Source of the DNA: Deltaproteobacteria bacterium
GTDB lineage: Bacteria; Desulfobacterota; GWC2-55-46; JADFVP01
DNA: 64,000 nt
Reading direction: 5' to 3'
Assembly: GCA_029262515.1 (NCBI GenBank)
Contig: JAJCZH010000007.1
Location: 1-64,000, forward strand
Positions 20,534-42,961 of this stretch are shown here, piece by piece. The first letter of the stretch is position 1. Each line of letters starts with the position of its first letter. The translations under genes and the position numbers were made by a program. The notes under the pieces were generated by a model. It was given only the letters and a program-made list of their open reading frames with translations. It was not told where the DNA came from and made no database searches.

Positions 20534-20839
20534 CTACATGCCCCGTTCCCTCGCATGCTTTTGAAGGTAGCCGAGTATTACCTCGGCCTCTTCATTCGTT
20601 AACGGCTCACGCACCCCTGTTGCCTTAACCTTCTTCTCCATCCTCTTGATTATATAACCCCATGTCTTTTTGTCGAGCAGCTTCGGGCTATAGACAGGGT
20701 GGCAGAGGTTGCACTTCTGCTCATAGAGTTTGAATGCTATGCTCTCGGGTTCGGGAATCGGCATTGAGCAGCCTGCGACGGCCAGCCCAACGGCAGCTAT
20801 TAACGGCGCGGTTAGAAATTTCTTAAAGCTAAATTCCAT
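20534..20839 (-). CDS. Monohaem c-type cytochrome lipoprotein
   Basis: 101 residues from the ATG at 20839, which follows AGGGG. It has a lipoprotein signal (AVGLAVAGC, lipobox LAVAGC with Cys about residue 24) and one haem-binding motif CNLCH, then a helical C-terminus with LTNEEAEVILGYLQKHARE, typical of small cytochrome c domains; a possible axial Met lies downstream (KRMEKK). It would be anchored to a membrane on the periplasmic side. A TTG codon at 20854 overlaps the stop codon of the psiE gene, so both are on one transcript. Electron partners are not shown by the neighbours. Confidence 0.8.
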   Translation of the reverse strand: MEFSFKKFLTAPLIAAVGLAVAGCSMPIPEPESIAFKLYEQKCNLCHPVYSPKLLDKKTWGYIIKRMEKKVKATGVREPLTNEEAEVILGYLQKHARERGM

Positions 20840-20850
20840 GGCTGCCCCTG

Positions 20851-21318
20851 TCAAAGAGTAGTCTTATCTCCGTTTTTTCTGTTGGACTTGCTGTAGATAA
20901 GATGGGAAGTAATTAGTATGAGCACGAGTATGCCGTGAACTATAAGCTGCGCAACGCCCTCTTTCCATTCCACCTCACCCATCGAAAGGCTCATCTGAGT
21001 AAGCAGTATTCCGCGTATGCTGGCGATAATACCTATGTAGAGAAACGGGTTGAGCGAGAAGCTGTGGCGGACTATCTGGCGCATCACCTGCCGGAAGAGC
21101 TCCATTATTATCAGTACGAACATCATATCCGAGATGATATGCGGTATCGTATGGGCCGAGAAGTAGAAGACGTCGGTAGCCCCTTCGATAAGCAGCATAA
21201 TCGCAACTGCGATAATGCCTATCGCAACGGCGATCAGAATAAGATCGTCGATAATTACAAAACCCGAGTTTACATATCGCATTAATCCGGTACGTTTCAT
21301 CTTTTCGTTCTCTGCCAT
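20851..21318 (-). CDS. PsiE-family membrane protein
   Basis: 155 residues, four hydrophobic spans: VIIDDLILIAVAIGIIAVAI, ISDMMFVLIIMELFRQ, FLYIGIIASIRGILL and LIVHGILVLILITSHLIY. It matches the PsiE (phosphate-starvation-inducible) family; the function of that family is unknown. AAGGAG precedes the ATG by eight bases. It overlaps or abuts the cytochrome gene downstream, an unusual partnership. Confidence 0.8.
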   Translation of the reverse strand: MAENEKMKRTGLMRYVNSGFVIIDDLILIAVAIGIIAVAIMLLIEGATDVFYFSAHTIPHIISDMMFVLIIMELFRQVMRQIVRHSFSLNPFLYIGIIASIRGILLTQMSLSMGEVEWKEGVAQLIVHGILVLILITSHLIYSKSNRKNGDKTTL

Positions 21319-21402
21319 CGGAGCACTCCTTTCCGGTGGAATAGAGTCAATTATGACTCTATTGTAAATGGTGTATCTCTATTCTATCTGTGTGAAGTTA
21401 AA

Positions 21403-21441
21403 AAGTAAAGGAGGGAGGCTAGCGCCGTCCCTCCTTTACTT
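21403..21441 (-). terminator. Terminator of the tiny membrane protein unit
   Basis: A perfect 14-bp stem (21403-21416 with 21428-21441, containing AAAGGAGGGA/TCCCTCCTTT) and an 11-base loop. On the minus strand it is followed by UUUUUAAC. It separates the two tiny genes from psiE. Confidence 0.8.
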
Positions 21442-21474: not shown

Positions 21475-21561
21475 TCAAGTAAGGGCTATTGCGCCTACTA
21501 TGGTTACTATCAGTACGGTTACCGCTATAATGTCCGCTGCGAATGAACTTTTTGTCTTCAT
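21475..21561 (-). CDS. Tiny single-span membrane protein A (28 residues)
   Basis: A 28-codon ORF with ATG at 21559-21561 and a good GGAGGT four bases before it. The product has a short basic head (MKTKSSF) and one hydrophobic helix, AADIIAVTVLIVTIVGAIAL, ending LT. It is clearly homologous to the ORF 59 bp upstream: DIIA.T.L.VT..GA is shared, about 12 of 20 residues. The single Asp at the start of the helix is conserved. I do not recognise the family. Single-span regulators of membrane complexes and type I toxins are both of this size; neither can be chosen from the sequence. Confidence 0.7.
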   Translation of the reverse strand: MKTKSSFAADIIAVTVLIVTIVGAIALT

Positions 21562-21620
21562 CTTTACCTCCACTGGCTGTACTGTCCTTTTACTAATAAA
21601 TTGATTGACTGAAAAACTTA

Positions 21621-21722
21621 CTATAATACAAGCACCAGAGCGCCTATAACGGTTACCGCCAAGAAGGTCAGTGCTATTATATCTACAGCAAGATCGTAAA
21701 TACCGAAAGACAGAATCTTCAT
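21621..21722 (-). CDS. Tiny single-span membrane protein B (33 residues)
   Basis: A 33-codon ORF with ATG at 21720-21722 behind GGGGGGAGGT. The product has a head MKILSFGIYDL and one hydrophobic helix VDIIALTFLAVTVIGALVLVL. It is the first gene of the unit and the paralogue of the 28-residue ORF downstream. Both keep the Asp-Ile-Ile-Ala start, Thr at the same two helix positions and Gly-Ala near the end, which argues for selection at the protein level. A -10/-35 pair lies 43-71 bp upstream and a hairpin holds the ribosome binding site. The function is unknown. Confidence 0.72.
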   Translation of the reverse strand: MKILSFGIYDLAVDIIALTFLAVTVIGALVLVL

Positions 21723-21753
21723 AGCATTACCTCCCCCCAAGAAAAAATGCTAT
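21721..21753 (-). promoter_or_regulatory. Hairpin presenting/masking the ribosome binding site of ORF B
   Basis: In the mRNA, AUAGCAUU (21746-21753) can pair perfectly with AAUGCUAU (21721-21728). The 17-base loop contains GGGGGGAGGU, and the 3' arm includes the first two bases of the start codon. Such an arrangement could control initiation (inference). Confidence 0.5.
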
Positions 21754-21764
21754 ATATCAAAAAA

Positions 21765-21793
21765 ATATTAGAGCAAACGCTATTAGTACTCAA
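21765..21793 (-). promoter_or_regulatory. Sigma-70-type promoter of the tiny ORF unit
   Basis: Leftward TTGAGT (21788-21793), a 17-base spacer and TAATAT (21765-21770), giving a leader of about 35 nt that begins just before the ribosome-binding-site hairpin. Confidence 0.6.
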
Positions 21794-21925
21794 AACAATA
21801 ACAGGCTTAACCGACCCTCTTATTCTCTCTATTATACTTATTAGAGATTAAAGGCCGGTTAATAGGGTAACACTTTTTCTTGGGTGGTCTGTCGGTAGGT
21901 ATGGTTTGTATTGAGAGCGAGAAGG

Positions 21926-22699
21926 TTACTTGCCGCAGCACTTCTTGTACTTTTTATTGCTTCCGCATCTGCACGGATCGTTTCGGCCTATCTTGGCGCC
22001 GGGCTCTTCGGTTGCTCCCTTGCTGAGTGAGGGGTGGAGCCTGACGAACTCCGTAACTTCGGCCATAATCTTGTCGGCGGCCTCTTCAGCGCTCCCGACC
22101 CCGTTTGCAAGGTGCTTCGCGCTCACTTCACGTTCTTTCTTTATCGCTTCAGTTATAATAGACTCGTTGTCGGTATTAGCTTCGGTGCCGGCTTCATAGA
22201 TTATCCGGCAGTAACCCTTCTCTCCTGGCCCGACTCCCGGTACGCCTAGAAAACCGCACTGGTCCGGGCGAATGTCTCTACCTGTTTCGGGGGTTAGCGA
22301 CGGATGTATTTCGCACTCCTTGTTTTCTCCGAGGTAGCGGCACCTGAAGGCGAACATGGCGAGCACTGAGAGCACAAGCGCGCCCTTCTCCTCTTTTATA
22401 CTCTGGACCGATACTCTGTACCGTTCAGGAGAGGCGAAGAGGGATCTGGGACGGGCCTCTTTAGTGACGTAGGCGCGTCTTATACGCCCTTCACGCTCTT
22501 TGATGGAGTTGAGCAGAACCTTGCGCCAAGCCGGCAGGTTTGCCACTCCGTCCGGTTTAACGAGCGGGTAGGAGATAATGCCCCACCATGGGTCGCAGCA
22601 GGCTCCGCCGCACGCCTCCGTGCAGATGCGCGAATAGTGCGCTTCACTTTCTCTGTTTGCTTTCATTCCCGATCTCTTGTCTTTATGTTTTCGTGGCAC
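21926..22699 (-). CDS. YkgJ-like Cys-cluster protein with C-terminal SEC-C motif
   Basis: 257 residues. The N-terminal region has a cysteine cluster (CTEACGGACCDP) and further cysteines at CRYLGENKEC and DQCGF, a layout like YkgJ/Fli B-type CxxxCxxCC proteins that bind zinc or iron. The last 20 residues are a textbook SEC-C zinc motif (GRNDPCRCGSNKKYKKCCG), as found at the SecA C-terminus. The partner and role are unknown. The shorter starts at MKANRES (22666) or the ATG at 22699 are both possible. It is monocistronic. Confidence 0.75.
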   Translation of the reverse strand: MPRKHKDKRSGMKANRESEAHYSRICTEACGGACCDPWWGIISYPLVKPDGVANLPAWRKVLLNSIKEREGRIRRAYVTKEARPRSLFASPERYRVSVQSIKEEKGALVLSVLAMFAFRCRYLGENKECEIHPSLTPETGRDIRPDQCGFLGVPGVGPGEKGYCRIIYEAGTEANTDNESIITEAIKKEREVSAKHLANGVGSAEEAADKIMAEVTEFVRLHPSLSKGATEEPGAKIGRNDPCRCGSNKKYKKCCGK

Positions 22700-42732: not shown

Positions 42733-42914
42733 AATACCACGACCGCTTGCCCGAATATTGGCTTCGGGTTATATAAGAAACTTCCCCCCGCAATTGCCGT
42801 GTCGACCGAAATTCGAACCTGTCTGACAGGTGGGTGCCTTGTGCGTTGTTTCCGATTTCCCTCCGGGGGCATGTCGTACGCAACGAGAGAAAGCTCCCTG
42901 GTCGAATAACATTG
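42733..42914 (-). ncRNA. ssrS: 6S RNA (candidate)
   Basis: About 182 nt between zapA and the 5-formyl-THF cyclo-ligase gene, the classic ssrS location. A closing stem forms between the 5' end (AAU, bulge GUU, AUUCGACC; 42900-42913) and the 3' end (GGUCG, bulge U, GGUAUU; 42733-42744). The 3' half contains the small side hairpin CCCGAA-loop-UUCGGG near 42757-42775, and an apical hairpin ACCUGU-CAG-ACAGGU lies in the middle at about 42818-42832. Size, end pairing and the 3'-strand hairpin agree with the 6S layout that mimics an open promoter and binds the sigma-70 holoenzyme. A consensus TATAAT precedes it. A covariance search was not possible. Confidence 0.65.
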
Positions 42915-42921
42915 GTTCTGA

Positions 42922-42927
42922 ATTATA
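42922..42927 (-). promoter_or_regulatory. -10 element of the 6S candidate
   Basis: A consensus TATAAT on the minus strand, eight bases before the start of the predicted closing stem. No good -35 hexamer stands 16-18 bases upstream. Confidence 0.5.
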
Positions 42928-42961
42928 CATGTCGATCACAAACAGAGCAGGGGAGAAGCTT

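Follow-up and report, generated by a model that had tools for sequence, protein, structure and literature searches.

The locus considered here raises the question of whether two very short open reading frames, lying in tandem and each predicted to encode a single hydrophobic helix, are genes at all and, if they are, what such proteins would do and under what control. Ordinary gene finders tend to miss genes of this size, and the single-helix proteins of 25–35 residues that are known come mostly from a few model bacteria, with one gene each time. The present case concerns a multi-copy tandem family, served by regulators of several recognisable kinds, in a lineage that appears to be uncultivated. 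Below, we describe the two genes (P1 and P2), the family to which they belong, their promoters and neighbours, and the functions that might be assigned to them. The positions of the features are collected in Table 1, where the window is the whole 64,000-nucleotide stretch of DNA that was analysed; genomes are referred to by G numbers.

Table 1. Features of the P1–P2 locus, with positions in the window.
Feature	Position	Strand	Basis or remark
DHC-family (dihaem) cytochrome c, downstream neighbour	20534..20854	(-)	PF09626, E 2.1e-6
PsiE-family protein, downstream neighbour past the terminator	20851..21318	(-)	PF06146, E 1.3e-10
Intrinsic terminator of the P1–P2 unit (stem 21441-21403, then rest of T run)	21399..21441	(-)	Folding
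P2, 28-aa single-helix membrane protein, P1 homologue	21475..21561, stop codon included	(-)	Alignment, family profile
P2 ribosome-binding site GGAGGT	21566..21571	(-)	Sequence and SD scan
P1, 33-aa single-helix membrane protein	21621..21722, stop codon included	(-)	Sequence, family profile, AlphaFold
P1 ribosome-binding site GGAGGT	21729..21734	(-)	Sequence and SD scan
Promoter named in the preliminary description, TTGAGT-N17-TAATAT	21765..21793	(-)	Best sense sigma70-like site of the P1 region
Candidate promoter element ATTAAC-CGGCC-TTTAAT-N10-TATAAT	21831..21863	(-)	Only exact match in 64 kb
SEC-C motif protein, upstream neighbour	21926..22699	(-)	PF02810

The P1 and P2 genes

P1 (MKILSFGIYDLAVDIIALTFLAVTVIGALVLVL) and P2 (MKTKSSFAADIIAVTVLIVTIVGAIALT) are real protein-coding genes. 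The preliminary description of this DNA had recognized them as homologous frames of 33 and 28 codons, each with a strong ribosome-binding site, and on both counts it was right: the same Shine–Dalgarno sequence precedes both, and the two peptides align with 12 identities in 22 positions (E = 2e-6 for the pair). The alignment score exceeds that of all 5,000 composition shuffles, and of all 5,000 shuffles that keep hydrophobic classes apart from other positions. Because the identical residues are in many cases specified by different codons, the conservation is at the level of the protein. P1 is modelled by AlphaFold as one helix comprising residues 8–32, with a core pLDDT of about 95.

A family of tiny membrane helices

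When P1 was the sole query only P2 and noise were recovered, and two-sequence, then larger, profiles were needed. The profile of the pair gave weak matches in short frames elsewhere, which on inspection turned out to be peptides with strong ribosome-binding sites, and its iteration led to 11 members in five genomes, designated family A, with E-values of 1e-7 to 4e-15 per genome. Five of them belong to the genome considered here (P1 and P2 at C7, and one copy at each of C5, C12 and C20); two congeners have two each, and two genomes of another family in the same order have one each. Matches inside long frames (e.g. L047, L058-L061) were excluded, and L048 (MTFSADIYEIAVLIIALAFLALV...) was rejected as a member because its reading frame continues and resembles another protein. 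There was no convincing match in the rest of the 63 genomes searched in the class, or in 395 genomes sampled evenly across the phylum, and none in viral contigs, a search for which the 11-row alignment is too variable; among the genomes searched, the family is absent from most of the order. Pfam, NCBIfam, PHROGs, PADLOC and the PDB likewise gave no significant profile match (best E 0.13), and family A is previously unnamed and uncatalogued in the protein-family libraries searched.

The members, of 25–33 aa, have a common layout: a short head, an invariant Asp and an uncharged tail that runs to the stop. From the Asp to the stop there are 18 uncharged residues in 10 of the 11 members and 19 in P1, and the GRAVY of the tail is 2.3–3.0. 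The head and the Asp are conserved, as is the tail length; the tail sequence drifts among hydrophobic residues. All members are below 50 aa and consist of essentially one transmembrane helix, as expected of the descriptive class of small stress-regulated membrane proteins.

For the closest orthologue pairs, dN is 0.12–0.15 versus a dS of 1.6–2.2, and the resulting dN/dS of about 0.07 is an estimate from 28 codons, with dS saturated in many pairs; judged by these comparisons, the orthologues are under purifying selection. The preliminary description had argued from protein-level conservation to real genes, and had named a lack of conservation, or frame-breaking changes in relatives, as the outcome that would speak against it; instead, the nine further members are open in frame and their dN lies well below dS. 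A suspicion that P1 and P2 are chance hydrophobic ORFs could appeal to their shortness and to the fact that a tiny hydrophobic ORF with a Shine–Dalgarno sequence occurs within 320 nt of about 4.6% of random positions, but it is refuted already at the family level by the profile E-values and dN/dS, together with the recurrence in five genomes and the terminators and shared promoter element described below. We give it hardly any credence.

The transcription unit and its promoter

Coding genes, membership of a family, a terminator and a promoter element shared with relatives can all be read from the sequence of the P1–P2 locus. A scan for terminators downstream was positive for 10 of the 11 members of family A, the exception being P1, which shares the terminator of P2; for the G038 member the hairpin of the scan is weak, yet the sequence shows a GAAAGCCCCGGC...GTCGGGGCTTTC stem. 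The stem behind P2 has 17 pairs (-28.9 kcal/mol, z = -7.6) and was correctly described beforehand, although it lies beyond the range then given. Short ORFs that are succeeded by a strong terminator and, past it, by a co-oriented gene might also suggest the leader peptides of an attenuator acting on transcription of the downstream psiE. This is very improbable: in the C12 and C5 groups the terminator is not closely followed by a co-directional gene, there are no regulatory codon runs, and the protein sequence is conserved across unrelated loci.

The proposal that the pair forms a complete unit thus holds for a two-gene transcription unit with its terminator, but not for the promoter originally named. 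TTGAGT-N17-TAATAT is present, but with p = 0.47 versus shuffles it is no better than chance, and is probably weak and not the main promoter. To judge from its sequence, a much stronger promoter candidate is TTAAC-N5-TTTAAT-N10-TATAAT, located at 21862-21831, about 64 bp past the SEC-C stop codon and 109 bp upstream of P1. Its half-sites (21863-21858 and 21852-21847) have an 11-bp period and are followed by a -10 box at 21836-21831. Two half-sites with this period next to a -10 box, conserved across genomes, are what is expected of promoters of the OmpR/PhoB family, and the geometry fits an activator of that family. The resemblance to the PhoB Pho box and to other OmpR-family direct repeats extends to the two half-sites, the 11-bp period and the place beside the -10 box, whereas the half-site itself, YTTAAY, is unlike the Pho consensus; such a direct repeat resembles the PmrA, PhoP and CtrA (TTAA-N7-TTAA) boxes. 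A CTGTCAT-type Pho box 10 bp upstream of a -10 is absent from the 64-kb window.

Promoters of the paralogues

The pattern YTAAY-N5-YTTAAY-N10-TATAAT is common to the window pair, the C5 group (three genomes) and G030, and a degenerate version can be made out by eye in G038. The C12 copy and its two orthologues each adjoin a divergent cytochrome b561 gene, and in all three genomes TGTGACYCAGGCTACTT precedes TATAGT at a distance of exactly 20 bp. If it is read as TGTGA-N6-(C)TACT, the site has its centre at -41.5 in the three genomes; class II CRP/FNR sites are centred at -41.5, and we consider it a putative CRP/FNR-type regulator site. A CRP/FNR-type site (TGTGACTTAGGTTACTT) was also seen in two congeners (L099, L100; G001:C66, G000:C2:74216) upstream of a gene for a secreted protein that is cupredoxin-like by eye.

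The C20 copy has a Pho box, CTGTCATATTCTATCAAC, 10 bp before TAGTAT, and the adjacent gene, for an OprO/P-type porin, has CTGTCATATTCCCTCAAC 10 bp before TACCAT; the porin gene is followed by those for a PstS-like phosphate-binding-type protein and a PhoB-like response regulator. The Pho box consists of two 11-bp repeats with CTGTCAT (PMC2648988), and among the sequences scanned it was found only at this paralogue and its porin neighbour. It should be noted that psiE of E. coli is apparently not a PhoB target (PMC10294691), so that the name of the gene downstream of P2 is not evidence of phosphate control.

In three genomes a soluble ORF of 57–60 aa (MAR.D...LELL...IF...NA) precedes the tiny gene of the C5 group, behind the same promoter element (L087 5467-5294, L090 6575-6396 and L091 2228-2046, all on the minus strand). 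It is present in one copy per genome and has no family match; AlphaFold gives a helical model for the 57-aa form, with a pLDDT of 67.

The element as a predictor of further genes

Across six genomes there are 75 sites with at most two mismatches to the element, versus 16 for the reversed pattern (10–15 versus 1–4 per genome). A tiny membrane ORF with a Shine–Dalgarno sequence lies within 320 nt downstream of seven of the 11 exact sites, against the background of 4.6%; the corresponding p of about 1e-7 is inflated because five of the seven had served to define the motif, the definition having drawn on about half of the exact sites. For sites not used in the definition, with at most one mismatch, a tiny membrane ORF follows four or five of 24 (p = 0.02 or 0.004, respectively). 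Stronger evidence comes from two tiny membrane ORFs that were found without the motif and that carry exact half-sites, N10 or N11 from the -10 box; one is directly upstream of PsiE in G009 and the other adjoins a SEC-C gene in G003. In the latter genome the element heads two consecutive tandem-pair cassettes with terminators, plus a third pair elsewhere. The peptides from G003 and G009 (family B) have the consensus GxGLNxxV..IV. No homology to family A is detectable (hhalign probability 3.9), and none is claimed; size, tandem layout, promoter and neighbourhood are all that the two families have in common. In each of the two consecutive cassettes (L150; G003:C47:1903-2834) two tiny membrane-protein genes stand between element and terminator, and the second peptides have MGRITEFEVYCGLGLNLAVIA in common.

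Other genes behind the element are those for cytochrome b561, a 65-aa soluble protein and a lipoprotein that is PCYCGC-like (E 0.015, which misses the curated cut-off), and there is a putative small RNA. That these targets are met again in several genomes speaks for a real regulon of membrane or redox flavour. The RNA candidate comes from three loci, L135 101-330 (G000:C5:58832 onward), L107 619-932 and L114 482-755, at which an exact element has no ORF behind it; a stretch of about 200–280 nt, ending TATCCTGCCGTAAGCGGAGGGGC...GCCCCTCCGTCCTCCTTTT, is conserved there in three congeners and has no Rfam match. This stretch probably encodes a small RNA that belongs to the regulon and has UCCUCC, an anti-SD-like sequence, as its tail.

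It is possible, although we advance it only tentatively, that the order possesses a conserved response-regulator circuit which has tiny membrane helices among its main outputs, families A and B being exchangeable, and a small RNA in its regulon. If so, two non-homologous families would fill the same promoter, size, tandem layout and SEC-C/PsiE neighbourhood, and function would depend on how a short helix behaves physically, not on its sequence; the question raised is whether very different helices can fill one regulated role. The element helps to predict further members, and the family opens a sequence-based route to such genes where annotation fails.

Two minor observations concern single loci. 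At L106 415-600 (G030:C57) an exact element stands before DVFYIVAQLALAVAMVSAIAVS, a tail like those of family A whose frame differs from that of the best start; this may reflect a frameshift, an assembly error or a pseudogene. Downstream of the tiny gene of G001 there are two tandem cobalamin riboswitches (L092 1400-1583 and 1721-1902).

Neighbouring membrane proteins as possible partners

The nearest partner was originally sought in the PsiE–cytochrome pair downstream, and P1 and P2 could indeed belong to a neighbouring membrane complex as small dedicated subunits, or regulate it; the complex would be that of PsiE, the cytochrome or, at C12, cytochrome b561. The window pair adjoins PsiE and cytochrome c, the C12 copies are divergent from cytochrome b561 in three genomes, cytochrome b561 genes also lie behind element sites, and in G009 the unrelated tiny membrane gene with the same element is directly upstream of PsiE. 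However, a tiny ORF of this kind is missing upstream of nearly all the PsiE genes scanned in relatives, and this weakens the partnership with PsiE; G009 is the clear exception, G016 offers a weak candidate that lacks a ribosome-binding site, and the contig of G001 ends too early to tell. A general link of tiny ORFs to PsiE was accordingly rejected as a rule. Moreover, a terminator stands between the pair and psiE, and the neighbours of the paralogues vary among a porin gene, a DUF218 gene, and an EAL/GGDEF gene accompanied by those for TetR and efflux. The link to PsiE, as far as the gene order tells, appears to be positional only, and a fixed subunit role is in our view unlikely, though it is the strongest of the alternatives.

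CydX and KdpF are single-helix small subunits that act on membrane partners, and AcrZ, MgtS and MgrB are single-helix proteins that do likewise; family A differs from all of these in having no constant neighbour gene and several paralogues at unrelated loci. Small regulatory subunits acting on membrane partners have been illustrated elsewhere (PMC12719787). The place that P1 and P2 had been given among small membrane regulators can be kept; the partnership with PsiE and the cytochrome is not supported.

On the upstream side, the SEC-C homologue of G003 (L032) likewise adjoins a tiny membrane-protein gene. Orthologues of the exact P1–P2 pair are out of view because the same-genus contigs break at the locus, that of G001 about 35 nt before psiE and that of G002 inside the SEC-C gene; a similarity search with the DNA of the whole region against G001-G003 gave noise only. 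The nearest named relative of the PsiE protein outside is in a groundwater ‘Deltaproteobacteria’ MAG.

Comparison with type I toxins

Membrane-associated toxins of type I toxin–antitoxin loci are hydrophobic, have fewer than 60 aa and contain a putative transmembrane helix (PMC8309996). The members of family A, small hydrophobic proteins below this length, resemble Hok, TisB, Ibs, Fst and ZorO in these respects, and it had been suggested that P1 and P2 might be such toxins, which would be repressed by an antisense RNA. Their single helix, multi-copy occurrence and restriction to one lineage would agree with this, as would a perfect TATAAT, 15 bp from a weak -35, that points antisense across P1 (p = 0.06–0.07) and a P1 start region that is mostly paired by prediction, even though accessibility of the ribosome-binding site, taken as a test for toxins, gave mixed values. 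The other members, however, have no antisense promoter better than chance, so that none is conserved. Conservation among the C12 orthologues is limited to the regulator site, -10, Shine–Dalgarno sequence, ORF and terminator stem, leaving no RNA-sized antisense region; leaders in this group are only 17–26 nt, and the synonymous sites have diverged. In contrast to the known toxins, family A has no supported antisense RNA and no charged C-terminus, and its promoters resemble activator-dependent stress promoters. We regard a toxin function as improbable.

Proposed function

The explanation that we favour, with a little better than even confidence, is that P1 and P2 form one two-gene unit for stress-induced small membrane proteins, similar to YohP, and that several regulators deploy the family. 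Paralogues under different regulators, and unrelated helices under the same promoter, argue for a short-helix role and not for a fixed subunit of one complex, and the control sequence shared in the lineage makes the proteins probably stress-response membrane modulators.

The mode of action is something we infer by analogy. An OmpR/PhoB-family response regulator would bind the direct repeat TTAAC-N5-TTTAAT beside the -10 box and switch P1 and P2 on. Each peptide would then insert as one helix, its short head, cationic in most members, lying in the cytoplasm and its free C-terminus at the outer face, and would act physically in the membrane by packing against the other peptide and against membrane partners. 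Such packing might alter the state of the membrane or the activity of proteins during stress, in the manner of YohP in E. coli. The paralogues would be wired to other signals, namely phosphate limitation through the Pho box and whatever is sensed by a CRP/FNR-type regulator.

YohP, a protein of 27 aa, lowers the membrane potential of E. coli without killing and induces metabolic silencing (PMC12719787). The likeness, which is drawn from size and layout with no claim of a sequence relationship, lies in the one helix, the near absence of a soluble part and the link to stress or starvation; family A differs in being multi-copy, in its tandem pairs and shared promoter element, and in having paralogues under different regulators. 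The topology also differs, since YohP is reported to be mainly N-out/C-in, whereas family A is predicted to be N-in from its cationic head, a prediction that is weak for P1.

Elsewhere in the window, a 6S RNA is found at 42781-42956 on the minus strand.
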